DNA of 64,000 nucleotides, taken from the NCBI RefSeq assembly GCF_026241205.1, contig NZ_JAPFQM010000006.1, positions 434,001 to 498,000 of the forward strand, written 5' to 3'. A program made the position numbers and the translations under genes. The DNA comes from Thermomicrobium sp. 4228-Ro. GTDB lineage: Bacteria > Chloroflexota > Chloroflexia > Thermomicrobiales > Thermomicrobiaceae. Below, one piece after another: positions 39,084 to 58,640 of the stretch. Numbering within the stretch: position 1 is the stretch's first letter; the number at the start of each line of letters is the position of its first letter. The notes under the pieces were generated by a model that was given only the letters and a program-made list of their open reading frames with translations, was not told where the DNA came from and did not search any database.

Positions 39084-42000
39084 TCAGCTGGTACGCGTGC
39101 GCCGGAGTCGTCCTCCGTCATCCTGTTGAAGCGACTTTCGCCTGAGGAGCGAGGTGAGAGCTGCTTCGATCCGTTCGCGGATGCGCGAACCGGTCCGTTG
39201 GAATCCGAGAAGTCTCGCGATTTCGCTGACGAGTTGCTCGCGTGTGACGGTTTCGAGCGTTTCTACCACGACCAGGATCAGGTCACGGAGTTCGCGCTCG
39301 TCGATCTCATTGATACTGCGTTTAGAACGAGGATAGTCCGGGTGCGCGATACGAGGGATTCGTCGAGAGGAATGCGACGAATCACCGTAGACCGCCACGA
39401 CTCCACGCTGGAGCAGGATTTCTCGCAAGTCTTCAGCCGGGTGGAAGCGTTGTGGAGTGATCTCGATCAGTCGTGATTTGGTCGAGGGAAAAGGGGCGAG
39501 AGCGGTCCTTTCGTGCAGCCGGGCGACCGCTTCTTCGAGTTGGCGACGGAGTTCCTCCTGAGCCCGCTGGCGGTGGTACCACCAGTCGGAGGACCAGACA
39601 CGGATGACGGTCCAACCGTTCCGCTCGAGCCATTGTTGCCGCAGCCGATCTCGCTCGCGGACGGTCGGCAGACTATGGTAGGTCGCACCATCGCACTCGA
39701 CTGCGATACAGACACGTTCTGGATTCTCAGGGTCAGGGATGGCGAGATCGATGCGGTACGGTCCGACTCCGTACTGCGGGAGGACGTGGTAGCCCCACGA
39801 ACGGATAACGTCCGCGACGATACGCTCGAACTCCGACTCATAGAGGTTATGACGTTGAGCGGGATCTGGAGCGGGTAGGATGCTGTCACGAGCGAAGCGC
39901 AGGTAATCCCGAACGATGCGGAGGCTGATCTGCCGTTCTTCGTCCTCGAGTCGAAAGTCTTCTGGCCGCAGCGACGTTACGAGAATCAACTGTTCCCGCG
40001 CTCGCGTGACGAGCACGTTGAGTCGGCGTTCGCCACCTGCCTGCGTGAGTGGGCCGAGTTGAAGGGTAAACCGACCCTCCTCGTCGCGACCGTACACTGT
40101 CGATACGATGATGACGTCACGCTCGTCTCCTTGGACTGCTTCGAGGTTTTTGACGAAGAATTCCTCGCCCGCCGGCCACTTCGTGGTGTCCCAAAGGTCT
40201 CGGAGTGCTGGGCGTTCTGCCGTACGCCGCTCGAGTTCGTCGAGCAGCACGTTCATCTGTGGCTCGTTGATGGTAACGACTCCCAGAGAGCGCTTGGTAC
40301 CCCAGCGCTGGAGGTGCTCCTCGACAAGTCGGCAAACCTCGTCGATTTCTTCCTCATTGATGCGGTCACCGTGGAAGCGACGGGCACGTCTTCCGCCGTT
40401 CGGCTTGACGGGACGGGTCCCGCCACGCCGGTACGTTCCGTTGACCAAGCGGTATTCGATGCCTGTCGGACGTTCCGGATCGCGAGGGCTCGGTACAGTG
40501 ATGAGGCTCGACCCATAGAAGACCACATTCGAGAATGCGATCAGGCGCTCGTCCTTGCTGCGGTAATGCCAGAGCAAGCGGATCGTCGGGTAGCGTCCTT
40601 CCAGCGCCTCGAGCACGCTCTCGCCGAGATCGAGTGTCCACTCCTCTTCGTCTTTTTGGTTCCCCTCGACCATGTCGAGCACTGCCGATTCGAAGAAGCG
40701 CGTCGGTGGGAGCTGCTTGGAGTCACCGCAAACGATGGTTTGCCTCGCTCGGTAGAGGGCAGGAATCGCCTCCTCGGGCCGAACTTGCGATGCTTCGTCG
40801 ATGATCACCACATCGAACTCGTGCTCTGACTGCAAGAAATGGCTGACGGAGAGTGGGCTCATCAACCAGCATGGTTTGACGCGCAGGATGAGCGGAAACG
40901 CTTCCTTGAAGATGCTGCGGAGCGAGCGCTGACGACGGCGCTTATTTGCCTCTCGTTTCAGCAACGCGAAGGCCGGGTGCGTCGCAAATACGTCCGTTCG
41001 TCGATCGTTGAGGCTCGCGACGAGCTGCTCCACTCTCCACCGTTCGAGCGATTCATCGAGAGACTGAAACTCGCGGCGCCGCTCCTCGTGGCGGTTCTTA
41101 TCGAAATCGCTGAGGGGGCGCCGTTCCTGCATGACCCAGGTCAACCAGTGTCGCAGAACGATCGACTCGACGATGTCGGGGATACTGCGAGCATCGAGAG
41201 TTTTCTCCGTTACCAATGACTGAACGATTTCCAGAGAGAGCTCTCGGGCGAGTTCGTCGCGAGCGCCACACGCGCGCCGGAATCGTCGGACATCGGGCAG
41301 GCGCTCGCGCAGCTGGCCGAGGAGATCTGTGAGCATCTCGAACGTGACGGGACGCTGGAACTCACGATCGTCACCGGAAGTGAGGAAACAGGCTACTTCT
41401 GCGAGCGACACACGGTGCTTGACGCGCAGCGGATCCTCGGTGAACAGCTCAGCGAGTTGTGCGAGTCGCTGGCCGCATTCCTTCACAGCGCCGTCGAGTT
41501 GGTCTGCGGCTGGCCGTAGGGTTGGATCGAGAGCTGCGGCTCGCAGAGCCTGAGGGATGGTTCGCCGAGGGAGGCGGGCGCAGAGTGCGCGCCAAACGTT
41601 TAACTGTTCACTGAGCGTGTGCCAAGTCGTGACCGAGCGCTCCGGGACGAACGCCCAGGATTGCGACACCTTGTGCTCGATGTCACGCAACTGGTTATAC
41701 AGTTCGTCCATCTCCGCAACTTGGCGCAGGAGTGCGGGGAGCCGATCGAGCGGAAGCGGGTTCGCGACGAATGGCTCTGCCTCCTTCCACCAGTCGGCGA
41801 ATCGTCGTGCTGCCTCGAGGAGATCCTGCAGCGTTTCTGCAGAGGCTTCGTCGATCCGTGCAGAGCTCGGCAAAATCAGCGAGAGTTGCTCAAGGAGGAA
41901 ATGCAAAGGTTCCCACTGCTCGAGAAGTTCTTTGGCGTATTGGATGGCCTCGTCTGGTGCCTGCTGTTGTCGTGAAAGGATGCGCAGCAAGCCAATTTCT

Positions 42001-44504
42001 ACTGTGTTGGAGAGCACAATCTCGGTTGCTGCGAGGAGTCGTGCGAGCGCCTCCGGGTCGTTCCGCACACCAGGTGCGACAAGCTGGAGGAGCGATCCCG
42101 CTTCGTCCGGCGACGACAGGCGCTCGATCTGTCGCCGGAGTTCCAGGAGTTGACCGAGCTGTTCCAACAGCACTGGGGTCGCCTCCTCGAAGCTCTGTGT
42201 GCCGCGATAGTGCTTCTTGAGCAGCTTGCGGCACTGCCAATAGGCTGGGCGGGCCCAACGGAAGCGAGCGGACCAGAGCCGCTGCCACTCGAGAACTGCG
42301 CCATTCATGGCGAGCGGCAGCAAGTCTTCGTTCCATTCGCCCCGAATGGCCTCGCGGAGCCGCTGCTCGTCGCGCAGTGCCCGGGCAAGCTCCCGTACCT
42401 TCGTGAGTATTGGCTGCGCGGCCTTTCGACACCAATCGACCGGAAGAACGAGATCGCCGTCGAGGCATTCCGCAACACGGATCAGGCTCTCGAGGTCTCG
42501 TACAGTCTGCGGCGGACGAAGTTCGAGTGCTCGGGAAAGATCATGAGCAGCTCGCCCGACCTCCTGGACGAGAGATCGAATGACTGAGACGTGCTCAGCG
42601 ATGCGTATCAGGTCATCCCGATTCAGGGAAGGGCCCTGGCGGGACAGGAGTTCGACGAGCTGCTCCGCTTGACTAGCCAGCCTTCGCAGGTTCCACGAAG
42701 GAGCGAAAACGTTCTGCTGCGACAGTATCATGGGGTCGAGTTCGGGCAAGTGTTCTCGCTCGATTTCGTGAAGCCTTTGCAGGCACGCTGTTGCGGTCTT
42801 TGCCCAGTCGGCCCACTGCGTTACCTCAGCTTGTTGTAGCCAACTCTGCGGAAACGGTGGGCAAGCCTCGAATGCCAGAAGCACCTCGAGAAATCTCCGG
42901 AGTTCCACAAAATCGTTCGGAGCGACGAGGCCGAGCTGCGTACTGCTCTCTCGTACACGGTTGACCAGATCATCGAGCGCTGCTGAGGCGTTCAGGACGG
43001 CGGTCTCGAGCATCGCCTCTGGGTAATCCAGTTGGACGCCGTACCACGGGAAGGTGCTCCCTTCACGCAGGAGGTCGATGCCCTCGGCGAAGGCAGCCGC
43101 CTCGTCGCGGAGTTCGACGAGGTCTTGGCGCGTGAGCTGCTGAGGCTTCAGCTTGATCTTCCCGAAGAGCGTCGGTTGTGGAAGCGCTGCCAGTCGAGCG
43201 ATTACCTCGAACGGTGTTTGCCCGAGAGGCTCCTCTGGTGTGTGAAGGGCATGGACATAGTCACGCAGCTGATCACGGCGGTGGCGCACTCGTTGTGGCA
43301 TATCCGAAGAAGTCTGGCCTTGAAGAATCCAGTGCTTGTCGAGCTCGTCGGTAATCGATTGGAGCACAGCACGGCGCTGCGCTTGGTGGCTGTGAAGATT
43401 GAGACAAAACGGAGCGAGACCGACCTGCTCCAAGCGCCGCTCGACGACATCGAGTGCGGCACGCTTCTCGCTGACGAAGAGTACCGTTTTCCCCTGAGCC
43501 AGCTGGTCGGCAATGATGTTGACGATCGTCTGGCTCTTCCCGGTACCGGGTGGCCCTTGAATGACGAACGTGTGGCCTCGACGAGCGGCGAGGACCGCTT
43601 GCAGTTGGCTACTGTCAGCTGGCAACACTGTAGCAACGTCCTCGGGTGAATACTGGGTATCCAGCTGCCTGGGATCCTCGAGCGGGAACGTCTCGGGAGT
43701 CTTCGTGCCAGCCAGTGTCTGGATAACCGGATGCTGGACGATACGGTCAGCATTGCGCTGCAGGTCTCGATAGATGGCAGTCTTCTGAAAGGCGAAGCGT
43801 CCGATCCAGCACCTGTATCGGACGGACCAGCCGCGAATCCGAACGCGTTCCTCGAACTGCGATAAAATGCTCTCGACCGATTCCTCTCCTGAGACTTCGA
43901 GGTCTTCGAGCGGAATCTTCTCGAGTTCAGTGAGATATACAGACAGTGCTTGATTGAGCTGAATATCTTCCTCTTCCGCTATCGACACGAAGAATGGTTG
44001 GCCGGGAGCTTCCCGTTCGACTGCGATCGGCACGAGAACCAGCGGCGAAATCCAGGTCGACTGCGATCGGCTGCCCGATACAGTCACGCTCGGTGACCAC
44101 TCGAGAGCTCCGAAGGCGAGATACAACGTCCAGAAGCCGGCGTCGTCGTACGTCAGCTTGGCCCGCCGTGTCATCTCGGTCAGTCGGCGCTCGAGCTCCT
44201 TTTGAGGCTGCTCGAACACGAGCACTGGTCCTGTTCGACTAGCCATGGTGGGCTGCCTTCCCGCAGCCCACGAATCCTGTGGTCTGCCACCAGCTTCGTC
44301 GTCTTCCTCCTCGCTCGTTGCCATCCCGATCGCGCGGAGCTGCTCCCCGTCCTGCACGAGGAGTTGCCAGATCTCTTGCGGGGTAGGGGCGAGCGGTTCG
44401 AGCCGATGCCGTGCATGGATGAGCGGATTGCGGGACGTCAAATCGAGCAAGCGCTTGGCACGTTCGTCGAGCCATCGACGGAGCGTCGTGTCGCGCTGTT
44501 GCAT
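39084..44504 (-). CDS. Giant DUF4011 / superfamily 1 helicase / Vsr-like nuclease / DUF3320 protein
   Basis: 1806 residues from ATG 44504. Order: DUF4011-type N-terminus (RLLDLTSRNPLIHARHR, about 15-150), split SF1 helicase with Walker A GPPGTGKSQTIV near 317 and DEAS box (VVIIDEASQV) near 1235, then QLPPT and VTRAREQLILV, a Vsr/PD-(D/E)XK-like nuclease near 1555-1660 (YRIDLAIPD ... CIAVECDGATYH) and a DUF3320 tail (about 1720-1790). A long helical insertion (about 450-1180) separates the helicase motifs. Proteins of this architecture occur in defence islands, where they are reported as single-gene anti-phage systems (the hhe type). No partner gene is adjacent. Confidence 0.88.
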   Translation of the reverse strand: MQQRDTTLRRWLDERAKRLLDLTSRNPLIHARHRLEPLAPTPQEIWQLLVQDGEQLRAIGMATSEEEDDEAGGRPQDSWAAGRQPTMASRTGPVLVFEQPQKELERRLTEMTRRAKLTYDDAGFWTLYLAFGALEWSPSVTVSGSRSQSTWISPLVLVPIAVEREAPGQPFFVSIAEEEDIQLNQALSVYLTELEKIPLEDLEVSGEESVESILSQFEERVRIRGWSVRYRCWIGRFAFQKTAIYRDLQRNADRIVQHPVIQTLAGTKTPETFPLEDPRQLDTQYSPEDVATVLPADSSQLQAVLAARRGHTFVIQGPPGTGKSQTIVNIIADQLAQGKTVLFVSEKRAALDVVERRLEQVGLAPFCLNLHSHQAQRRAVLQSITDELDKHWILQGQTSSDMPQRVRHRRDQLRDYVHALHTPEEPLGQTPFEVIARLAALPQPTLFGKIKLKPQQLTRQDLVELRDEAAAFAEGIDLLREGSTFPWYGVQLDYPEAMLETAVLNASAALDDLVNRVRESSTQLGLVAPNDFVELRRFLEVLLAFEACPPFPQSWLQQAEVTQWADWAKTATACLQRLHEIEREHLPELDPMILSQQNVFAPSWNLRRLASQAEQLVELLSRQGPSLNRDDLIRIAEHVSVIRSLVQEVGRAAHDLSRALELRPPQTVRDLESLIRVAECLDGDLVLPVDWCRKAAQPILTKVRELARALRDEQRLREAIRGEWNEDLLPLAMNGAVLEWQRLWSARFRWARPAYWQCRKLLKKHYRGTQSFEEATPVLLEQLGQLLELRRQIERLSSPDEAGSLLQLVAPGVRNDPEALARLLAATEIVLSNTVEIGLLRILSRQQQAPDEAIQYAKELLEQWEPLHFLLEQLSLILPSSARIDEASAETLQDLLEAARRFADWWKEAEPFVANPLPLDRLPALLRQVAEMDELYNQLRDIEHKVSQSWAFVPERSVTTWHTLSEQLNVWRALCARLPRRTIPQALRAAALDPTLRPAADQLDGAVKECGQRLAQLAELFTEDPLRVKHRVSLAEVACFLTSGDDREFQRPVTFEMLTDLLGQLRERLPDVRRFRRACGARDELARELSLEIVQSLVTEKTLDARSIPDIVESIVLRHWLTWVMQERRPLSDFDKNRHEERRREFQSLDESLERWRVEQLVASLNDRRTDVFATHPAFALLKREANKRRRQRSLRSIFKEAFPLILRVKPCWLMSPLSVSHFLQSEHEFDVVIIDEASQVRPEEAIPALYRARQTIVCGDSKQLPPTRFFESAVLDMVEGNQKDEEEWTLDLGESVLEALEGRYPTIRLLWHYRSKDERLIAFSNVVFYGSSLITVPSPRDPERPTGIEYRLVNGTYRRGGTRPVKPNGGRRARRFHGDRINEEEIDEVCRLVEEHLQRWGTKRSLGVVTINEPQMNVLLDELERRTAERPALRDLWDTTKWPAGEEFFVKNLEAVQGDERDVIIVSTVYGRDEEGRFTLQLGPLTQAGGERRLNVLVTRAREQLILVTSLRPEDFRLEDEERQISLRIVRDYLRFARDSILPAPDPAQRHNLYESEFERIVADVIRSWGYHVLPQYGVGPYRIDLAIPDPENPERVCIAVECDGATYHSLPTVRERDRLRQQWLERNGWTVIRVWSSDWWYHRQRAQEELRRQLEEAVARLHERTALAPFPSTKSRLIEITPQRFHPAEDLREILLQRGVVAVYGDSSHSSRRIPRIAHPDYPRSKRSINEIDERELRDLILVVVETLETVTREQLVSEIARLLGFQRTGSRIRERIEAALTSLLRRKSLQQDDGGRLRRTRTS

Positions 44505-48545: not shown

Positions 48546-48699
48546 CCGTGCCCGGTCGCCCGGGTGCACCTTTCTGTGGTGCAACCGGTATCGGGTCGGC
48601 CGGACCCGAATGGCCGAGGGCCGAGCATGGAGCGCCGCGTGAGCGGATCCGATGTGCGTGGTGGGCCGGGTCGATCCTGCTCGGCAGCTGTTCGGACGC

Positions 48700-48728
48700 T
48701 GGACAGGCGGCGCATCCTCGTGTAGGCT
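48700..48728 (+). promoter_or_regulatory. Promoter for the T-box/lysX transcript
   Basis: TGGACA at 48700-48705, 17-bp spacer, TAGGCT at 48723-48728. Start of transcription is expected near 48735, just where the T-box leader structure begins. Confidence 0.55.
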
Positions 48729-48734
48729 AAAGGG

Positions 48735-49021
48735 GTGAACAAGCGAGCGCCGCAAAGGCGGCGAAGAGGAGAGTACCCAGCGGGATCGGTCCAGCGAGCC
48801 GCGGGTGGTGGGAAGGCGGCCCGTTACCGTTGGGGAAGAAGGCCTCGGAGCTGCGTCCCGATCCGCGCGATGCGCGGGGTAGGCGACGACGGTGGCCCCC
48901 GTTATCGGGCCGCACTCGGTTGCCTGGCCGAGTGGTCGAGGCCGTGTCCCGCGAGGGCACGGCGAAGCGGGGTGGTACCGCGAGACAGCACCGCTCGCCC
49001 CCGCCGGGGCGAGCGGTTTTT
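48735..49021 (+). ncRNA. T-box riboswitch leader, probable tRNA-Lys specificity
   Basis: The conserved T-box sequence AAGCGGGGTGGTACCGCG is at 48965-48982. An intrinsic terminator follows at 48991-49021 (CCGCTCGCCCC pairing with GGGGCGAGCGG, then five T). Upstream elements match Stem I: GAGGAGAGTACC near 48765, a distal bulge/loop block with AGCGAGCC and GGTGGTGGGAAG near 48793-48814, and a CCTCGGAGCTGC block after the specifier. By alignment of that block the specifier codon is AAG (48839-48841), Lys. Binding of uncharged tRNA-Lys would favour the antiterminator and lysX expression. Confidence 0.9.
48991..49021 (+). terminator. T-box regulated intrinsic terminator
   Basis: Eleven-bp GC stem (48991-49001 with 49006-49016), four-base loop, then TTTTT at 49017-49021. 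Mutually exclusive with the antiterminator that uses the T-box sequence just upstream. Confidence 0.85.
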
Positions 49022-49340
49022 GCTTCGTGGAGCGAGCGACTGGTGAAGCAGACGGCACGACGACTGGCGATCGGTGGACGAACGACTGCGGCACGCGCCG
49101 GTGGCGCGGTGGCGCGGTCGGTTGGTGCTGCTCGCTCCCTCTCGCTGTTCCGTTCCTCGAGCCAGCCCGGTATACCCCTCCAGCCTGCCTGGGAGGTGAC
49201 GCGCGAACTCCGGCAGCAGGCGACGCACGGTGCCCAGCCGCACAAACGCGGGACGAAACGCCTGGCCTGAGGGCCAGCGGAATCCGTCAGCCGGTCGGTG
49301 TGCGGTTGGTTCAGGTGTCGTCAGCAGTCGGAGGAACGTC
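49022..49340. other. Stretch between T-box terminator and lysX
   Basis: About 320 bp. I looked for a lysW gene (about 55 residues, two CxxC pairs, acidic EDWGE-type C-terminus) in all frames and found none. A small CTGGCC/GGCCAG hairpin is at about 49262-49277. Otherwise nothing recognised; it would be a long 5' leader if lysX starts at 49341. Confidence 0.4.
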
Positions 49341-50225
49341 GTGGAGCGCGTACGGGTCGGCCTGGTCTACGGTCTCTTGCGAACGGAAGAACGGTTGTTG
49401 ATCGCGGCGCTCGAAGCTCGCGGCGCCGTGGTCGAGCGCCTGCTCGACCGGCAGGTGCGGCTGGAGGCCACTGCGCCGCCGCCGCAGTACGACGTCGTGG
49501 TCGGTCGCTCGGTGAGCCAGCAGCGCGGTCTGCACGTGGCGAGCATCTTCGAGGCCTGGGGGATCCCCGTCGTCAACCCGACGCGGGTCCTCGAGGTCTG
49601 CAACGACAAGCTCCGCACGACCGCGCTCCTGGCCGGAGCCGGTATCCCTCAGCCGCGCGTCATCGTCGCCTTCAGCCCCGAGGAGGCGCTGGTGGCAGCC
49701 GACGAGCTCGGCTATCCGGTCGTCGTCAAGCCGCCGCTGGGGTCCTGGGGGCGACTCCTGGCCCGTGTCAACAGTCGGCGGGCGCTCGAGGAGCTCGTGC
49801 GGCACAAGCGCCTGCTCGGCGGATTCCACCACGGGACGCTCTATATCCAGGAGTGGGTGCCCAAGCCGGGACGCGACATCCGGGCCTTCGTCGTCGGTGA
49901 GGAGACGATCTGCGCCATCTACCGGAGCGCGCAGCATTGGGTGACGAATACCGCGCGTGGCGGCCGTGCCTCGAACTGTCCGGTGACACCGGAACTCGCC
50001 GAACTGTGCAGCCGTGTCGCGCGGGCGGTCGGCGGCGGTGTGCTGGCCGTCGACGTGCTGGAACACCCGGAGCGCGGCTACCTGGTGAACGAGGTCAACG
50101 CGACGATGGAGTTCCGCAACTCGATCGCACCGACCGGCGTGGACATTCCCGGTCGCGTCGCCGATTACGTGCTCGCGGTGGCCCGGGCACAGCGCCCGGC
50201 GACGCTCCTGGCTGCCTCGCACTAG
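49341..50225 (+). CDS. lysX: LysX-type ATP-grasp ligase (lysine biosynthesis, alpha-aminoadipate pathway)
   Basis: 294 residues from GTG 49341 with GGAGG 6 bases upstream. RimK-like ATP-grasp fold: [51 protein letters not shown] (ATP lysine and Gly loop), [14 protein letters not shown], and the metal site [13 protein letters not shown]. LysX joins the carrier LysW to alpha-aminoadipate; the close paralogue ArgX uses glutamate. The upstream T-box with a Lys-type specifier supports LysX. No lysW, lysZ or lysY is adjacent. Confidence 0.88.
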
Positions 50226-51036: not shown

Positions 51037-54000
51037 CTACCGAACAGTGTCGGACGAGCCGCTCGCACCGAACACCTCGGGATAGGCCGCGACCTGCTCG
51101 GCCAGCCGCTCGTCGTAGCGCAGCACGATCACCCGGTAGCCCCGCGCGATCAGGTTGCGGCGCGTCCGCTCGTCGAGCCGCTGCTGGTCAGGCCGGTCGT
51201 GGGGCGGCCCGTCGACGAAGACGAGGACGTTCGGGGCATAGAAGAAGTCGGAGCGGCAACGCGGTTCCTCGATCACCTTTTGCGCGTCGTCGGGCAGTCG
51301 CAGGCCGTGGTCGAAGAGGTATTCCAGCACCTCCCGTTCGAGCGACGACTCGCAACGCTGGGAGAGCCAGGCGAACTGCTCGTCGCGCGAGCGGTCTCCC
51401 ACCCGCGGCTCGACGCGGCTGGCAGCGAGCGCCTCGAGCACCGGTCGGACCGCGAAACGGTCGAGGTACCGCACCAGGCGCGCCGAGCTGTAGGTGAGCA
51501 AGCACTCCGAGCAGGCACCGTCACAGTCCGGCCGCTCGGTATCGGGCGCGAAGTGGCACAAGCGGAGCGCTTCCTGCGCGACTTGCGCCAGCGCCTCCGG
51601 TTCCTCGACCAGCCGGCGCAGCACGCCGAGCCCGCCCTCAGCTTCCTCGAGGAACAGGAGCGCGAGGTGCTCACCGCTTCCGACTTCCGTGACACTGATC
51701 TCGGTCTCCTCGAGCTGGAACACCTTCCCGAGCCCGCGGTGGAGCGCCACGCTGAGCGTCGTGCGACGGACCGGATCGTCGCGGACTTCCGGGTCGAGCA
51801 GCTGGACGAGCAGGAGGTTCCGTGTCTCCTGCACGGCGAGCGCGAGCCGGGCGAGTTCGCGCGCCTGTGTCGTGCGGGAGCGTCGTGCACGGCTTCGCTG
51901 CTCCTCGTTGCTCACCACCTCGCCGGTCGCGAGGTCGACGAGGAAATCGGGCGACTGGCTGGCTCGCCAGCCACGGTTCAGGGTGAGGAGCGTCGCAGCT
52001 GGTGCGTAGCGGAGTGCCAGGAGCGGCTGGCCTTCTGGCGTCCGCACGTCGGCAGCGAGCCAGCGGACACCGCTCTCGGCCGGCGCGAAGCGGAAAGCCA
52101 CCTGGCGGGCATAGCCACGCAGCTGGCGCTCTTCTTCGTTGCAGGTAATCCGCTCGCGCCGCTCGAGGTGCACGTTCGGCATCTCGAGGAACTTGACGAT
52201 CTCAGCGTTCGCTCCGGCCAGTTCCACCCCGCAGTTGGGGCAGCGGTCCGCGTGCTGCTCGGTCCAGGCGGCGCAGCGGCGGCAGAGCTTGCGCATCACC
52301 ACCCGTTGCTCGAGCGACCCGGCTCCGATCGGGATGAAGAACCGTGCGAACTGCCATTTCGCCCCTTCGTGGTAGACGATCGTGCCGGGAGCGAACTCGG
52401 TGACCGCGAGGTGGCGTGGACGGGCGATGAACTCGCCCTCGCGCCGCGGTACCCAGGCGCGGACCGGGAGCGACGGGAAGTTGTAGCCGGGCAGGAACTC
52501 CTCGGTCGCCAGGTATCGGTAGGGGTAGAAGTCGCTCTCTTCGCGCTCGACACCGAGCTGGAGGAGAAGGTTCCGTTGCCGCACCGCCTCGTTCTGCCGA
52601 CGGTTCGCTTCGTCCTGTGCGGTCCGGTCACGGGCGGTGCGGAGAAGCTTCTGTGCCGCATCGAGCTGCTCGGTCGCGGCCCGGAAGAGCTCGCGCCAGC
52701 GGTCGAACGCCCGGTCGAACCGCTCGGGCGCCGAGTCGATGAGCTGCTCGAGCCAGCGGTCGGAGAACCAGCCGGTCCGGGCCAGCTCCTGTCGGTCGAG
52801 CGGTGTGAGGACGCGTTCGAGACGCCGCCGCAGCTCCTGCCGCTTGGCGGGCGCCAGCTGGAGCTGCTCGCGGACCGTGTCCCGCAGCGGGTACTCGGGC
52901 TCGCGCTCGATGTCGAGCACCGACTCGACCGAATCGTGCAGGGCGATGCCGGTCTCGTAGAGCCACTCGGCGAGGATGTGGGTGCGGAGCAACGTCTCGT
53001 TCGCCAGGTCCAGGCGGGGGGCGCGGACAGCGCCGGCGACCATCTCCTCGCGGTGGCGGAAGAAGTACTGGTCGTGCCCGTGGAGCGCACCGCAGAAGGT
53101 GAGGATGAGCCCTGGCTGGCCCTGCCGACCGGCCCGGCCGCTCCGCTGGGCGTAGTTGGCGGGCGTCGGCGGGACGTTGCGCAGGTGAACCAGGTCGAGG
53201 TCGGCGATATCGATTCCCAGCTCCATCGTCGGCGAGCAGACGAGGTAGGGGAGTCGGCGGCCGAGCGAGGGGTCGCGCTGGTCCTCCTCCGTCCAACGGA
53301 AGCGCCGCTCGCGGCGGATCCGTTCGCCGGGTGCGACCACCTGGGCCGTGTGCTCGCGTGCTTCCAGGGCGGCGAGTTCGCGCGCCGCTTCCTGGTAGAA
53401 GCGCTGGAAGAAGGCGTTGGCCCGGCGCTCGTCCTCGCTCAACTGCGCCCGCTCGCGCACCAGGTCGACGACCGGCGTACCGTCGCCGCGGCACCAGAGG
53501 AGCGCCGTGTGCCGGAGGCGCACGGCGAGCGAGCCGTCGCTGCGCTCCTCCCGCGTGACGAGTCCGTAGGCGGCCAACCGCTCGAGCAGTGACGGGACCA
53601 CGACCGCGTAGGTCTCGCCGTCCAGTCCGAGCGCTCGGGTCAGGAAGCGCCCGATGGCAGTGCGTTGCGCGAGGCTGCGGGGGTCCTCGTCGCCCTCGCT
53701 CGGTGCTGGCCAGACGAACGCTGGAGCGCGGCGGAGGCTGCCCGCGCTGGGATCGATGCCCCAGAACTCGTCGAGATGCGCTTCGGCTCGCTGGCGCAAG
53801 CGGCGCTGGCGCTCCTCGTCGACCAGGAACGGTGCATCGACCGCCAGCTCCCGGCGGAAGTGGTCGAGCACGGCACGCAGGAGCCACTCGCGGCGGGCCG
53901 GGTCGAGCGCTGAGAAGACGGGAACGTCACGCCAGGAATCCTCGTCGGCGGCGAGTTCGGGCAGTCCCAGGTAGTCGATGCGGAGCAGGCCGACGTCCTC

Positions 54001-56121
54001 CAGGTTGGGCAGCGCGACGCGCCAGCCGCGCTTGAGGTCCTCGTAGAGCCGGTACTCGGTCAGGTCGCGGAAACAGTCCCGCACCTCGCGCGCGATCGGC
54101 GAAGCCTCGCTGAGCTGGCGCTCGCGCGCGTAGTCGGCGAGGGTGAGCCCCATGTGGCGGACCACCGCATCGGCGACCGTGTCGAAGGCGAGGGGCGAGC
54201 GTTCGCGGAGCGCGCTGTAGAGTGCCGAGCGCAGCACCGCTACGTGGACGAAATCGTTGAAATGCCCGGCCTGGAGCGAGGCGTCCTGGCGGCTATCGGT
54301 GAAGGTCAGCAGCTTGTCGCGACCGCCCAGCGCGCGGGCGTGGCGCAGGAGCGAGACTGCCAGCACCGTCGTCGCCGAGCTGCGCCCCTCGCTGGCCAGG
54401 TAGGTCAGCCGCTGGTACTCGCTCTCGCGTGCTTCGTACCAGGTGCCACATGAGAGGCACAGCCAGAACCGTTCGGTCTGCAGCCAGGCGGGCAGCGCGC
54501 CCTCGGCCTCACCTCCCGCGAGCTGCCCGTTGGGGAAGACCCACACGGCCCGCGGCACGCGGTTCCGCCAGGTGGAGCGCAGCCGGCCGCGTGCATCGCG
54601 CCAGTCGTCGGGAAGACGCTCCTCCGACCAGTCCGGAACGGCTTCCGCGAGCATGAGGTATCCCGGGAGGGCCTCGGCATCGTCGAGCGGGAGACCGGGA
54701 GGGTAGGGCTCCAGCCGATCCTCCCGGACGAGGACGCGGTAGTACTCCTGCCCGCAGGCGCGACAGAAGGCGAGCGGCAGGCGTAGCTGCTCGCCGCTGG
54801 CCCGCAGTTCGGTCGCGAAGCGGCGCTCGGCGGCGGGCTCGAGCGTGGCGTAGAGCGCGTGGCTCTGCGAGATGAACTGGTGGAGCTTGAAGGCGAAGAG
54901 CGGCTGACCGTCGGCGCGACGGACGCTGCTCGCCGTCTCGAGGAGCTCCTGCAGGCGGACCTCGCAGCGGTCGTGCGGTTGACCGGTGAGGTCGGCGAGC
55001 TCGCGGGCGACGGTGCTCAGCGGGCGGGGCGTGCGGCGGCGCAGCGAGCCGTCCGGCTGCGGCTCGACCCCGAGCGCGCGCTCCAGCCAGCGGGCCAGCG
55101 GGTGGGCGCGGAGCGCCTCGGCGTCGGTCGGGAGCGCTCCGGCGAGGGCTGCCGCCAGCTCGGCGGGGGTGGGGAGGTCGCCCTGCGTCACAGGCTCCAG
55201 CGTCTCTTCGATCACGTCATCGGGCGCGATCGGGTGGCCGAAGAAGCGGGAGGCGAAATCGGCCACGACCTGGCGCCGTTCGGCTGCGGTCGCGTCGCGG
55301 TGGGCGACCAGCGTCGCACTGGTGCCGACATGGACGACCTGGGGGCGCTCCAAGCGGGCGCGCAGGCGGCGGACGAGGAGCGCGACATCGGCGCCCTGGC
55401 GGCCGCGGTAGGTGTGGAGCTCGTCGAAGACGAGGAAGAAGGGGAGGCGGGCGTCCGGTCGTGGGGCGACGAGCGGTGCGTCCTCGGGCCGGTCGAGCAG
55501 GAGTTCGGCCATCACGTAGTTGGTGAGGAGGAGGTGCGGTGGGTCGCGACGGATCGCCTCGCGCTCTTCGTTCGGTGTCTCGCCGGTGTAACGCGCGAAG
55601 CGGAGGGGGAAGGGTCGGCCGGTCCGTTCCTGGTAGCGGCGCGCGAGTTCGGTGAGGGCGTGGAACTGCGAGTTGACGAGCGCGTTCATCGGGTAGACGA
55701 CGAGGGCGAAGGGCCCAGGCTCGTCAGGGCAGCGGGCGGCGAGGTCGACGATCGGGACGAAGTAGCAGAAGCTCTTCCCGGAACCGGTGCCGGAGGTGAC
55801 CACCACGCTGCGGGCTCGCTGGACGGCGCGGATCGCCTGCACCTGGTGGGTGTAGAGGCGGATCGGCTGGCCGTCGGGTCGCCGGAAGACCTGGGCGGTC
55901 GTCGGGTGGAGCACGCCCTCGGCAGCGAGGTCGTCGACGGTCGCGTCGCGGCGGTAGGCGGGGGAGAGCTGGACGAGCGGTTCCGGCCAGAGGTGCTGCT
56001 CGTCGAGGAGGAGGCGGTGGATCTCGGCCTGGATACGCGGGTCGCGGGCGATGACGAAGGCGCGGATGAAGTCCTGGTAGTCCTGGAGGACGCTGCGGTG
56101 CAGCGCGAAGACGGACGACAT
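51037..56121 (-). CDS. Large DEAD/DEAH helicase with DUF1998 and Vsr-like C-terminus
   Basis: 1694 residues from ATG 56121 (AGGGGAGG upstream). SF2 helicase: Walker A TSGTGSGKSFCY near 110, DELH box (LVFDELHTYRG) near 233, TSATL, and motif VI YAQRSGRAGRQGQ near 994. A CxxC-CxxC zinc site (CRRCAAW ... CPNCG) is near 1287, the DUF1998 cysteine cluster (CDGACSECLLTY) near 1534, and a Vsr/PD-(D/E)XK-like tail near 1625-1680 (FFYAPNVLVFVDGPPH). The combination resembles DruE of Druantia, DrmA/DrmB of DISARM and MrfA repair helicases. No partner subunits are adjacent; a methylase lies 8 kb away. Confidence 0.87.
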   Translation of the reverse strand: MSSVFALHRSVLQDYQDFIRAFVIARDPRIQAEIHRLLLDEQHLWPEPLVQLSPAYRRDATVDDLAAEGVLHPTTAQVFRRPDGQPIRLYTHQVQAIRAVQRARSVVVTSGTGSGKSFCYFVPIVDLAARCPDEPGPFALVVYPMNALVNSQFHALTELARRYQERTGRPFPLRFARYTGETPNEEREAIRRDPPHLLLTNYVMAELLLDRPEDAPLVAPRPDARLPFFLVFDELHTYRGRQGADVALLVRRLRARLERPQVVHVGTSATLVAHRDATAAERRQVVADFASRFFGHPIAPDDVIEETLEPVTQGDLPTPAELAAALAGALPTDAEALRAHPLARWLERALGVEPQPDGSLRRRTPRPLSTVARELADLTGQPHDRCEVRLQELLETASSVRRADGQPLFAFKLHQFISQSHALYATLEPAAERRFATELRASGEQLRLPLAFCRACGQEYYRVLVREDRLEPYPPGLPLDDAEALPGYLMLAEAVPDWSEERLPDDWRDARGRLRSTWRNRVPRAVWVFPNGQLAGGEAEGALPAWLQTERFWLCLSCGTWYEARESEYQRLTYLASEGRSSATTVLAVSLLRHARALGGRDKLLTFTDSRQDASLQAGHFNDFVHVAVLRSALYSALRERSPLAFDTVADAVVRHMGLTLADYARERQLSEASPIAREVRDCFRDLTEYRLYEDLKRGWRVALPNLEDVGLLRIDYLGLPELAADEDSWRDVPVFSALDPARREWLLRAVLDHFRRELAVDAPFLVDEERQRRLRQRAEAHLDEFWGIDPSAGSLRRAPAFVWPAPSEGDEDPRSLAQRTAIGRFLTRALGLDGETYAVVVPSLLERLAAYGLVTREERSDGSLAVRLRHTALLWCRGDGTPVVDLVRERAQLSEDERRANAFFQRFYQEAARELAALEAREHTAQVVAPGERIRRERRFRWTEEDQRDPSLGRRLPYLVCSPTMELGIDIADLDLVHLRNVPPTPANYAQRSGRAGRQGQPGLILTFCGALHGHDQYFFRHREEMVAGAVRAPRLDLANETLLRTHILAEWLYETGIALHDSVESVLDIEREPEYPLRDTVREQLQLAPAKRQELRRRLERVLTPLDRQELARTGWFSDRWLEQLIDSAPERFDRAFDRWRELFRAATEQLDAAQKLLRTARDRTAQDEANRRQNEAVRQRNLLLQLGVEREESDFYPYRYLATEEFLPGYNFPSLPVRAWVPRREGEFIARPRHLAVTEFAPGTIVYHEGAKWQFARFFIPIGAGSLEQRVVMRKLCRRCAAWTEQHADRCPNCGVELAGANAEIVKFLEMPNVHLERRERITCNEEERQLRGYARQVAFRFAPAESGVRWLAADVRTPEGQPLLALRYAPAATLLTLNRGWRASQSPDFLVDLATGEVVSNEEQRSRARRSRTTQARELARLALAVQETRNLLLVQLLDPEVRDDPVRRTTLSVALHRGLGKVFQLEETEISVTEVGSGEHLALLFLEEAEGGLGVLRRLVEEPEALAQVAQEALRLCHFAPDTERPDCDGACSECLLTYSSARLVRYLDRFAVRPVLEALAASRVEPRVGDRSRDEQFAWLSQRCESSLEREVLEYLFDHGLRLPDDAQKVIEEPRCRSDFFYAPNVLVFVDGPPHDRPDQQRLDERTRRNLIARGYRVIVLRYDERLAEQVAAYPEVFGASGSSDTVR

Positions 56122-56174
56122 CGGTTGCCTCCCCTCCGCTGCGTTCCCGTTCCATCGCGAGGATCGTGGAGCGA

Positions 56175-56193
56175 CGGGAACACTGGTCTTCCC
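56175..56193. promoter_or_regulatory. 19-bp near-palindrome, candidate operator (copy 2)
   Basis: Exact copy of CGGGAACACTGGTCTTCCC found at 8489-8507, here 54 bp upstream of the helicase start codon (56121, minus). Flanking bases differ beyond one or two positions, so the identity is not part of a longer duplication. Confidence 0.45.
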
Positions 56194-56426
56194 ACCGGTG
56201 CGGGACGCGCTCGTCGAGCGAGTATACCGGCTGCACTCGGCGGGCACGCAAGAGACGATCCGGGCGAGGTGCGGGCGGCGCTGATCCGTGCGCCGTACGC
56301 TCAGCTCACTCGAAGCGTCGCGGCAGGTGCGAACCTGCCTCGTGACGCGGTGTGTCACAGGAGCAGGATCACGGGCCTGTCACCGGCCCTTCCAGGGCCG
56401 TACGGGTCAGCAACGCCTGACCCGTC

Positions 56427-57191
56427 GGGTCGGGCACGCCCGACCCCTACACGGAACGAGGGTGGTCGATCCGGCACCGGTGGGCGATGGGCAGGCCACC
56501 GTCCCTCACCGGTCACGTCGTGTGGGGGCGCGGCGTGCCTCGCCCGACCGCGCCACCAGGCGGCAATCGGGTTGTGGTTCCTCGGGCCCGACGGGCCGGC
56601 TGGTTCGGGCACGCCTCGCCCCGACAAAGGCGGCGGTCAGTGCGGACTGCTGGGTGATGCCTGGGCGACCCTCGCTGGTCGATCGGTCCGTCGTCGTTGA
56701 CGGGGCGACGCGTGCGTCGCCCGTCCGCGCCGCAAGGCGCGGGAAAGCGGTCGGTTCCCGGCTCAGATGGGCCTGACGGGTCAGGCACGCCTGACCCTTA
56801 CCGGAACGGCGGTGGGCGACGTGACCGCCGTTGGGCGATCGGGACCGACCGTCGCCGAGAGATCACGCCGTCGTTGCTGGAGGGGCGAGGCGTGCCTCGC
56901 CCAGCCGCGCCGCGAGGCGCGGAAATCGGTCGGCCAGGCTCCAGCACCCGGGACGACACCCCTCGCCCCCGACTCGCTGGCGCTCGCTACCCCTTCTCTC
57001 CCTTCTCGCATACCGCGTCGGAGAGAGGGTCGGGGGCTGCGCGGGCTCCGCACGCGAGACCCGTCGGGCCGGGCACGCCCGACCCCGACCGGGGCGGCGG
57101 TGGACCGAGGGTCGACAGCCGGCGGCGTGCGATCGACCGCAGCACCGCGCCGTCCGCCACAGTCCCGTAGGGGTGGGGCGTACTTCGCCCC
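56427..57191. repeat. Array of palindromic repeat elements, block 1
   Basis: About eight cores of 16-22 bp of two related types: GGGTCGGGCACGCCCGACCC (for example 56427-56446, 56777-56796, 57063-57082) and GGGGCGAGGCGTGCCTCGCC (56524, 56702, 56882, 57169). Several are followed by CCGCGCCGCAAGGCGCGG-like second hairpins. Non-coding by eye. The elements lie between the helicase promoter region and the DUF433/DUF5615 pair and resemble REP/MITE-type dispersed palindromes. Confidence 0.7.
57065..57190 (+). repeat. 126-bp direct repeat, copy 1
   Basis: Begins CGGGCCGGGCACGCCCGACC and ends GGGGCGTACTTCGCCC. It matches 58481-58606 at 124 of 126 positions by my reading (two substitutions near 57126 and 57133). 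Both copies carry a palindrome core at each end. Confidence 0.8.
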
Positions 57192-57426
57192 CGGACGGTC
57201 CGCTTCCGGCTGGTCATCGCCTGCCGCTGTACCGGACCCATGTTGTCGCTTGATAACGTACGTACGCGACGTGCTAGGATTCGGTCGGCACAGCTGCACG
57301 AGCTACCGTCCGTCCAGAAAGGAGTGGCGATGGCACCCGATTTCCGCGGCTGGGAGCCGCGCCTTCCGCTCCTCGTGTGCGTTATCATCGTCGTGCTGGA
57401 CAGCCGGGTTGACGAGGAGTCGGGCG

Positions 57427-57675
57427 ATGACCGAAGCAGGCGAAAGCCGGTGGCACGAGCGGATCACGATCGACGAAGCCGTCCTCGCGGGAAAGCCGGT
57501 CATCCGCGGCACCCGGATCGCGGTCGAGCAGGTGCTCGACCTGCTGGCAGCGGGCTGGACGATCGAGCAGCTCCTCGACGAGTTTCCTGTCCTCACCGAA
57601 GCCGATATCCGAGCCTGCTTGTCCTATGCTGCCGAAGTCCTGCGCAGCGAGCGGGGCTACCCGGTACCTCGATGA
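57427..57675 (+). CDS. DUF433 antitoxin-like protein
   Basis: 82 residues from ATG 57427. DUF433 signature: ERITIDEAVLAGKPVIRGTRIAVEQVLDLLAAG then WTIEQLLDEFPVLTEADIRACLSYAAE. These small helix-turn-helix proteins pair with DUF5615 PIN-like proteins as presumed toxin-antitoxin modules. The stop overlaps the next start (ATGA). A possible promoter (TTGATA and TAGGAT, 19-bp spacer) lies near 57249-57279. Palindromic repeat blocks surround the pair. Confidence 0.9.
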   Translation: MTEAGESRWHERITIDEAVLAGKPVIRGTRIAVEQVLDLLAAGWTIEQLLDEFPVLTEADIRACLSYAAEVLRSERGYPVPR

Positions 57676-58019
57676 AACTGCTCGTCGACGAGAACATTCC
57701 CCGGTCGGTCATCCAGATACTGGTCGACGCTGGCCACGACGTGCGCGCCGTCGGCACCGTCGCCCGGGGTGCGACCGATGCCGAGGTCGTGGGGCTTGCC
57801 GTTCGCGAGGGCCGGGTCATCGTCACCGCCGATAAAAACTTCGCGGAACTCGCTGTACGTCTCCCCGGTTGCCCCTCGATCGTGCTCGCACGCTTGACTA
57901 GCGTAGCGAGTCCTCAGCACGTCGCCGAGTGCATACGGAAAGCGCTCGCCTGTGTGGATCGCGAGAGCGGCGTGCTCGTCGTGGTCGAACCGGGTCGCAT
58001 TCGGGTGCGGCGCTGGTAA
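57672..58019 (+). CDS. DUF5615 PIN-like toxin candidate
   Basis: 115 residues from ATG 57672. PIN-fold pattern: KLLVDENIPRSVIQILVDAGHDV with the first acidic residues, ATDAEVVGLAVREGRVIVTADKNFAEL with the Asp pair, and a closing CPSIVLARL strand. It probably is an RNase whose activity the DUF433 partner controls; the direction of toxicity is assumed from the family. It overlaps the DUF433 gene by 4 bp. Confidence 0.9.
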   Translation: MKLLVDENIPRSVIQILVDAGHDVRAVGTVARGATDAEVVGLAVREGRVIVTADKNFAELAVRLPGCPSIVLARLTSVASPQHVAECIRKALACVDRESGVLVVVEPGRIRVRRW

Positions 58020-58201
58020 CGGATGGAGCCTGCGACAAAGGGACGTGCTCGAGGTGGGAGGGGGCTGCAGTCGGTTCTGGCCGCCGGCGTGTGCACGGTT
58101 GCACGGGAGTCGCGCTCAGGGTTACCTGGCAGGGTGCGGCACGCGGTCGTGCTCCCTCCCACGCGGGAGACGCTGGGTCCGTATTCCGGTTCCCGGCCCG
58201 T

Positions 58202-58640
58202 CGGGTCGGGCGTGCCCGACCCCTACCGCAGTCGACCGTGGCCGGTGGGTCGGGGGTCGGCGAGAGGCAGACGACCGTTGACGAGCTGTGGCAGCGACCG
58301 GCCGAGACTCGACGAGGGACACCCCGGTCATCTCTTCTGGTGCTGTCGCACACCTCTCGCCCCCGCCCCGCTCGGGCTCGGCACCCCCTCCACGTCCTCC
58401 TCGTAGGGGCGAGGCGTGCCTCGCCCAGCCGGTACACCTCTCACACCTGCCGCTGGAGCGGGGTTCGGTTCCCGGCCCTTCGGGCCGGGCACGCCCGACC
58501 CCGACCGGGGCGGCGGTGGACCGAGGGTCGACAGCCGGCGGTGTGCGACCGACCGCAGCACCGCGCCGTCCGCCACAGTCCCGTAGGGGTGGGGCGTACT
58601 TCGCCCGCGTTTCCGTTCGAGGGCGACGCGGGCGTCGCTC
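58202..58640. repeat. Array of palindromic repeat elements, block 2
   Basis: Cores at 58202 (TCGGGTCGGGCGTGCCCGAC), 58406, 58481, 58585 and 58619, of the same two types as block 1. It includes copy 2 of the 126-bp direct repeat. Between the DUF5615 gene and the degenerate copy of the pair. Confidence 0.7.
58481..58606 (+). repeat. 126-bp direct repeat, copy 2
   Basis: Near-identical to 57065-57190; see that entry. The two copies bracket the intact DUF433/DUF5615 pair, as would be expected after a duplication or recombination between the repeats. Confidence 0.8.

Follow-up and report, generated by a model that had tools for sequence, protein, structure and literature searches.

A lysine-type T-box and a conserved lysine-coded leader upstream of lysX in Thermomicrobium: two proposed tRNA-charge sensors in series

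As a rule, T-boxes and leader-peptide attenuators are presented as two alternatives for reading tRNA charging, each in different bacteria. In the heat-loving bacterium Thermomicrobium sp. 4228-Ro, lysX is preceded by a long leader, and the locus raises the questions of which amino acid this leader senses and whether the T-box in it is the only sensor. The window, by which we mean the whole stretch of 64,000 nucleotides that was analysed (contig NZ_JAPFQM010000006.1, positions 434,001 to 498,000), had been described in an earlier note in which a lysine-type T-box was reported upstream of lysX; a second, lysine-coded element that stands before lysX was missed there. Taken together, lysX appears to stack both kinds of sensor, so that lysine supply is seemingly checked twice. 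The features on which the argument depends are collected in Table 1.

Table 1. Features of the lysX leader, in window coordinates.
Feature	Position	Strand	Basis
Likely promoter: TGGACA, 17 nt, TAGGCT	48700..48728	+	by-eye reading
T-box leader, Stem I to antiterminator	48752..49005	+	RF00230, full-length model
Specifier codon AAG (Lys)	48839..48841	+	covariance alignment and comparison of relatives
T-box sequence GGGTGGTACCGCGA, with UGGU bulge at 48973-48976	48970..48983	+	covariance alignment
Intrinsic terminator: 11-bp stem, 4-nt loop, T5	48991..49021	+	folding energy and scan match
Leader ORF, 75 aa, GTG start, TGA end	49043..49270	+	in-frame conservation; annotated in T. roseum
Anti-Shine-Dalgarno segment CTCCGGC, inside leader ORF	49208..49214	+	pairs with 49327-49333
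Inner helix, 5' arm, directly before first AAA codon	49237..49243	+	pairs with 49300-49306
Inner helix, 3' arm	49300..49306	+	helix comparison, 6 sequences
lysX Shine-Dalgarno region GTCGGAGG	49327..49334	+	3' partner of the anti-Shine-Dalgarno segment
lysX, LysW--alpha-aminoadipate ligase	49341..50225	+	TIGR02144

A transcriptional T-box with a lysine specifier

A T-box with a competing terminator had been claimed upstream of lysX, and both are there. A permissive cmscan of 48600-49400 matched RF00230 over the full length of the model (1-219 of 219) with 68 bits and an E-value of 1.6e-14, and the stem at 48991-49016, followed by T5, folds with -25.4 kcal/mol (z -4.7; none of 200 shuffles was as good). 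It is the only terminator-like site that the scan returned in 48600-49400. The antiterminator is predicted at -17.9 against -25.4 kcal/mol for the terminator, whose 5' arm is common to the 3' strand of the antiterminator, making the two folds mutually exclusive. lysX is thus preceded by a transcriptional T-box with a strong terminator. The extent first given to the element, 48735-49343, opens with the GTG of an ORF beginning just upstream of the T-box match and closes with the third base of the start codon of lysX (49341-49343). As for the promoter, TGGACA or TAGACA paired with TGTAGGCT lies 5' of the T-box in six of the six window-genus loci that were printed, and a strict consensus promoter scan gave no match.

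Scanned with Rfam defaults, the window gave no match, because the T-box scores below the 93-bit Rfam gathering score, which is a listing cut-off and not an anatomical feature. Across the whole genome (G000; 3.07 Mb, 13 contigs) there are six matches to the T-box model, that of the window included. The other five precede leuS (CUC), ileS (AUC), a 2-isopropylmalate synthase gene (CUC), trpE (UGG), and thrS (ACC), where the names leuS, ileS, trpE, and thrS come from reading the translated frames. Since two of these five are under the cut-off as well (trpE, 87.5 bits; thrS, 65.4 bits), such a low score is no exception in a genome this GC-rich. A lysine riboswitch or a member of any other Rfam family was also considered for the leader, and none besides the T-box appeared up to an E-value of 5 when 4227 families were searched against 48600-49400.

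The specifier had been placed at AAG by eye, and by eye the specifier loop, GAAGAAGGCCTC, accommodates either GAA (Glu) or AAG (Lys). The window alone reads GAAGAAGG, and in one sequence the frame is ambiguous. Were the specifier GAA, one base earlier, the T-box would read tRNA-Glu, which would suit an ArgX that uses glutamate, the ArgX substrate according to the available text of PMC10433800. Several observations make this reading very improbable. In the RF00230 alignment the model consensus GAA-a-uuc-a-CC stands against GAA-G-AAG-G-CC in the window, and the ileS T-box of this genome, an element of known amino acid, serves as a control for the register, since its loop is likewise 8 bases long and reads GAA-G-AUC-C; both lead to AAG. 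Among the 20 aligned lysX T-boxes (the window and its relatives), AAG is constant in all 20, the preceding base being G in 15, A in three, T in one, and C in one, and the following base G in ten, C in five, and A in five. Read in the Glu frame, the relatives would carry GAA, AAA, CAA, or even the stop UAA (locus L020), and on this comparison across 20 T-boxes a Glu specifier was rejected. The protein encoded in the window also appears to carry LysX-type residues and not those of its paralog, as described below. Because the Rfam register, the ileS control, and the constancy of AAG agree, we regard the assignment to lysine, made from aligned sequences, as secure; a non-Lys codon, which the earlier note had named as an outcome that should count against its proposal, did not appear in the covariance alignment.

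Both tRNA-Lys isoacceptors, CUU and UUU, are encoded in the genome, each gene ending in ACCA, to which the UGGU bulge of the T-box is complementary. The two genes lie at positions 791127 and 815866 of G000:C6, the same contig as the window. In its parts the element resembles other members of RF00230, with a Stem I that bears the specifier, a T-box sequence, a UGGU bulge, and an antiterminator set against a terminator, and it differs in sitting on lysX and in its AAG specifier. In the available text of the TBDB paper (PMC7778990), specifiers for Lys belong to the rarest, and in two-codon families a 3'-A is preferred to a 3'-G, which for lysine means AAA.

The ligase gene and its metabolic setting

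The gene downstream had been called LysX-type, and TIGR02144 agrees, with 336 bits against a cut-off of 275.6. A paralog, clustered elsewhere with other genes of the pathway, also passes (306.9 bits), so TIGR02144 alone cannot separate LysX from ArgX. At NATMEFRNS the window ligase aligns with the solved LysX chains, which read NEVNHTMEFKNS, where the paralog has GGVEFKGLM. The putative signature residues would be N and S in the window, as in solved LysX, and G and L in the paralog, a comparison set against PMC10433800 by description. In the available text of that paper the signature is Asn-Thr in SaLysX and Gly-Phe in SaArgX, and the residues of the paralog resemble the ArgX-type change described there. 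Because the sequence family separates the two enzymes poorly, the T-box and leader themselves may help to tell LysX from ArgX.

Over cut-off, the genome contains one LysW, one ArgB/LysZ-type kinase, and one ArgC/LysY-type reductase, and these are clustered with a [LysW]-lysine hydrolase and the second LysX-like ligase. Since they are single-copy, LysW, LysZ, and LysY are probably shared by arginine and lysine synthesis. The ligases alone are duplicated, which makes LysX a sensible control point, as the ligase is the one enzyme of the set that could respond to lysine only. Next to lysW a third LysX-like ligase, a divergent one, is encoded (L037 13302-14144, minus strand, G000:C1); it scores 88 bits, far below 275.6.

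The proposed link of the T-box to lysine synthesis by the LysW route is supported, with a caution as to the complete route. In its favour are the identity of LysX, the single LysW, and the lack of a match to lysA (diaminopimelate decarboxylase) anywhere in the genome, in a search that was positive in 13 of 14 control genomes. Against a complete aminoadipate route, no homocitrate synthase was found over cut-off with NCBIfam models, the two best matches being 2-isopropylmalate synthase and citramalate synthase. The diaminopimelate route, which lacks lysA, is only partly excluded, as dapA and dapB are present. For these reasons, namely the missing homocitrate synthase and the presence of dapA and dapB, the lysine route and the source of alpha-aminoadipate are not fully shown.

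Elsewhere in the window, two giant helicase proteins are encoded on the minus strand, one with DUF4011, AAA, and MTES_1575 nuclease domains (39087-44504, 1806 aa), and the other a DEAD helicase with an MrfA Zn-binding domain (51040-56358, 1772 aa); both possibly serve in defence or repair. Dispersed direct repeats of 134, 87, and 38 nt, at most 97% alike, lie at 56416-58609 between two gene blocks.

A lysine-coded leader between the terminator and lysX

In the window, 319 bases separate the T-run of the terminator from lysX, and most of this interval is taken up by the leader ORF of Table 1. It has three Lys codons only, of which two are AAA near the stop (49244-49246 and 49256-49258). Its counterpart in Thermomicrobium roseum is annotated as a hypothetical protein (TRD_RS09990), ending THGAQPDKRGTKRSA. 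A search of Pfam gave no match for the ORF. LysW was considered as its product and rejected, since the single LysW of the genome is encoded at G000:C1:872143-872298.

The end of this ORF is conserved as a coding sequence. Over the last 19 codons in six loci of the window's genus, the frame of the ORF keeps 14 of 19 amino acids unchanged, compared to 4 of 18 in each of the other two frames, and the variable columns fall 3, 4, and 14 times at codon positions 1, 2, and 3. The upstream part of the ORF is variable. The choice of lysine codons is also distinctive: 18 leader ORFs use AAA 59 times and AAG seven times, and the adjoining lysX genes use AAA once and AAG 75 times, although the 18 loci are kin and a Fisher test on the pooled counts overstates the contrast. 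When one locus is taken per genus (L007, L013, L016, L017, L023, and L026), the leaders have 21 AAA and 3 AAG and the lysX genes 0 and 25, and six genes of the window have 17 and 63. Part of the AAA bias could come from unpaired loops, if these favour A. On these comparisons we consider the lysine coding of the conserved leader ORF secure.

Among relatives, loci of lysX orthologs were taken from 16 (L008-L023) and 13 (L024-L036) places, of which L036 is a paralog and not an ortholog. RF00230 was matched in 15 of the former and 4 of the latter. Counted by family, a T-box precedes lysX in 17 of 17 same-family loci (the window and 16 others), and in the other families of the order 3 of 12 loci have one. 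A Lys-codon ORF lies between T-box and lysX in 18 of 20 T-box loci, the exceptions being L027 and L034, where a T-box without leader stands 58-81 nt from lysX. Conversely, L021 carries an AAA-coded leader with Shine-Dalgarno pairing and no detectable T-box; its leader, with two AAA codons, was recognised by eye and is below the criterion of our scan, which required three or more Lys codons within 330 nt and found no convincing ORF in L025, L028-L033, and L035. The arrangement is modular, and either T-box or leader can be absent. In Thermomicrobium roseum DSM 5159, T-box (59.9 bits, with a specifier loop identical to that of the window), annotated ORF, and lysX follow in matching order on the 918-kb plasmid record NC_011961.1, where the T-box lies at L068 3014-3268; the window locus matches this record.

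The message of the leader could pair with the Shine-Dalgarno region of lysX. Across six sequences of the window's genus, the anti-Shine-Dalgarno helix is paired in 90% of cells and the inner helix in 97.9%, with one pair changed on both sides. The two helices together have 94.3% of cells paired, compared to 31-46% when slid, with only 2 double changes in this genus and a covariation score that 39 of 500 shuffles reached. In genera g2 and g5 the helix has 87% of cells paired, compared to 23-52% when slid, and three of 11 pairs are changed on both sides. By folding, the window's leader-to-Shine-Dalgarno duplex is predicted at -26.6 kcal/mol (1 of 100 shuffles as good), and 14 of 18 loci have a duplex that at most 5 of 100 dinucleotide shuffles match (mean z over loci -2.2); the duplexes of L009, L013, and L026 are unremarkable, and that of L024 is equalled by 10 of 100 shuffles. 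In L021, TTTGGAAAG, a stretch of nine bases before lysX, is complementary to CTTTCCAAA within the leader, and the last triplet of this leader pairing segment is the first AAA codon. The scan of 48600-49400 found no terminator between leader and lysX. Both the coding of the leader and its potential to sequester the Shine-Dalgarno region are evident from these comparisons.

Whether a stalled ribosome would open the hairpin was modelled by masking the footprint of one ribosome at every codon and scoring Shine-Dalgarno accessibility, in a crude equilibrium model. A stall at some AAA codon raised accessibility by at least 0.15 in 8 of 18 loci (L013, L017-L020, L022, L023, and L026), and in 0 of the 6 loci of the window's genus. 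With one ribosome, the mean rank of AAA codons over the 18 loci was 0.48, which is chance; with two queued ribosomes it was 0.35, the window itself hardly changing. In the window's genus the masking result thus counts against a simple stall model, and for this reason two other readings are kept open.

One of these is that the T-box is the sole regulator, the ORF having arisen by chance or encoding some small protein, with no more than incidental pairing to the Shine-Dalgarno region. The solitary T-boxes of L027 and L034 show that lysX can be preceded by a T-box alone, the leader ORF is without known function or Pfam match, GC-rich RNA folds readily, and masking gave no release in the window's genus. 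Set against this are the in-frame conservation and third-position variation at the lysine-containing end of the leader, the opposite codon choice in leaders and lysX together with compensatory pairs, and the persistence of a leader in L021 where the T-box is gone, so that we find a sole T-box unlikely. Alternatively, the leader may regulate by a signal other than lysine-codon stalling, such as an arrest peptide, translational coupling, or a hairpin that unfolds with temperature. Non-Lys residues, too, are invariant in the window's genus (14 of 19 columns), single AAA stalls leave the Shine-Dalgarno region closed there in the masking model, and in genera g2-g5 the ORF overruns the start of lysX, as in coupling and unlike a textbook leader. 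Yet the peptide varies across genera where AAA codons and Shine-Dalgarno pairing persist, the first switch of lysX already reads tRNA-Lys, and the Leu-type T-box of leuA likewise precedes a Leu-codon leader; we judge such a signal improbable.

A probable pair of sensors in series, and known systems

The reading we prefer, and hold to be fairly probable, is that two sensors of lysine-tRNA charge act in series on lysX, an AAG T-box followed by an AAA-coded translational attenuator. Uncharged tRNA-Lys would pair with both specifier (AAG) and bulge (UGGU) and favour the antiterminator, allowing RNA polymerase to pass the terminator; the anatomy is observed, and tRNA-dependent readthrough is proposed from the known mechanism of T-boxes. 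The read-through RNA would then carry the leader ORF, with its mostly-AAA lysines and a message able to pair with the Shine-Dalgarno region of lysX. Under a shortage of lysyl-tRNA, ribosomes may slow down at the AAA codons or form a queue there, in which case the sequestering hairpin would stay open and lysX would be translated; when lysine is ample, the leader would be read to its end, the hairpin would close, and lysX would be off. That the leader is translated, that ribosomes stall in it, that the Shine-Dalgarno region is then freed, and that the two isoacceptors are read separately is what we infer from this arrangement.

A more tentative extension, to which we give somewhat less than even weight, is that the two layers form an AND gate and read partly different isoacceptors, and that the same tandem on leuA, with leucine, makes the design general in Thermomicrobia. 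The AAG of the T-box would best match tRNA-Lys CUU, and the AAA codons of the leader would be readable by tRNA-Lys UUU. The leucine counterpart would be a CUC T-box and a Leu-codon leader on leuA. Upstream of leuA (2-isopropylmalate synthase; L003/L046, G000:C1 ~1222000, minus strand), a Leu T-box is followed by a Leu-codon ORF, MFYRVSSLLRLSLSRPRGGATSDAGRA, and, before leuA, by a conserved CTTAGC-CGGCCCC...GGGGCC element. Of 20 leuA loci, 14 have the T-box core and four have none, one runs off the end of its contig, and one went unevaluated. leuA thus looks like a gene on which a T-box and a LEU-type element stand in series, and its leucine leader by itself is of a known kind, resembling the actinobacterial LEU element in the available text of PMC1262725.

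If the series on lysX is confirmed, it would provide a natural case for why one tRNA pool is measured both free in solution and via the ribosome, and would let one ask whether the two layers read different isoacceptors. In the open-access literature, as far as its available text goes, we found neither a T-box followed by a leader-peptide attenuator nor a lysine leader on lysX.

In the classical attenuators of trp, his, and leu, a short ORF codes for the regulated amino acid and is coupled to competing RNA structure. The lysX leader shares both traits and differs in that no terminator lies between leader and gene, the sequestered target being the Shine-Dalgarno region. Tandem riboswitches, including pairs of T-boxes, also place two RNA regulators in series on one gene, as described in the available text of PMC12452182; on lysX, in contrast, the second regulator would be a translated leader and not a riboswitch. 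The LEU element of actinobacterial leuA is similar in design, having, in the available text of PMC1262725, an ORF with codons for the end product, a message that pairs with the Shine-Dalgarno box, and no terminator of its own, all as in the lysX leader. Mutations of its leucine codons are reported not to act as in classical attenuation (Seliverstov et al. 2005, PMC1262725, from the same text). The LEU element is recognised by a conserved pseudoknot and by a run of leucine codons upstream of leuA, where the lysX leader has lysine codons; the latter differs from it, as described there, in coding for lysine and not leucine, in standing on lysX and not leuA, and in having a T-box upstream.
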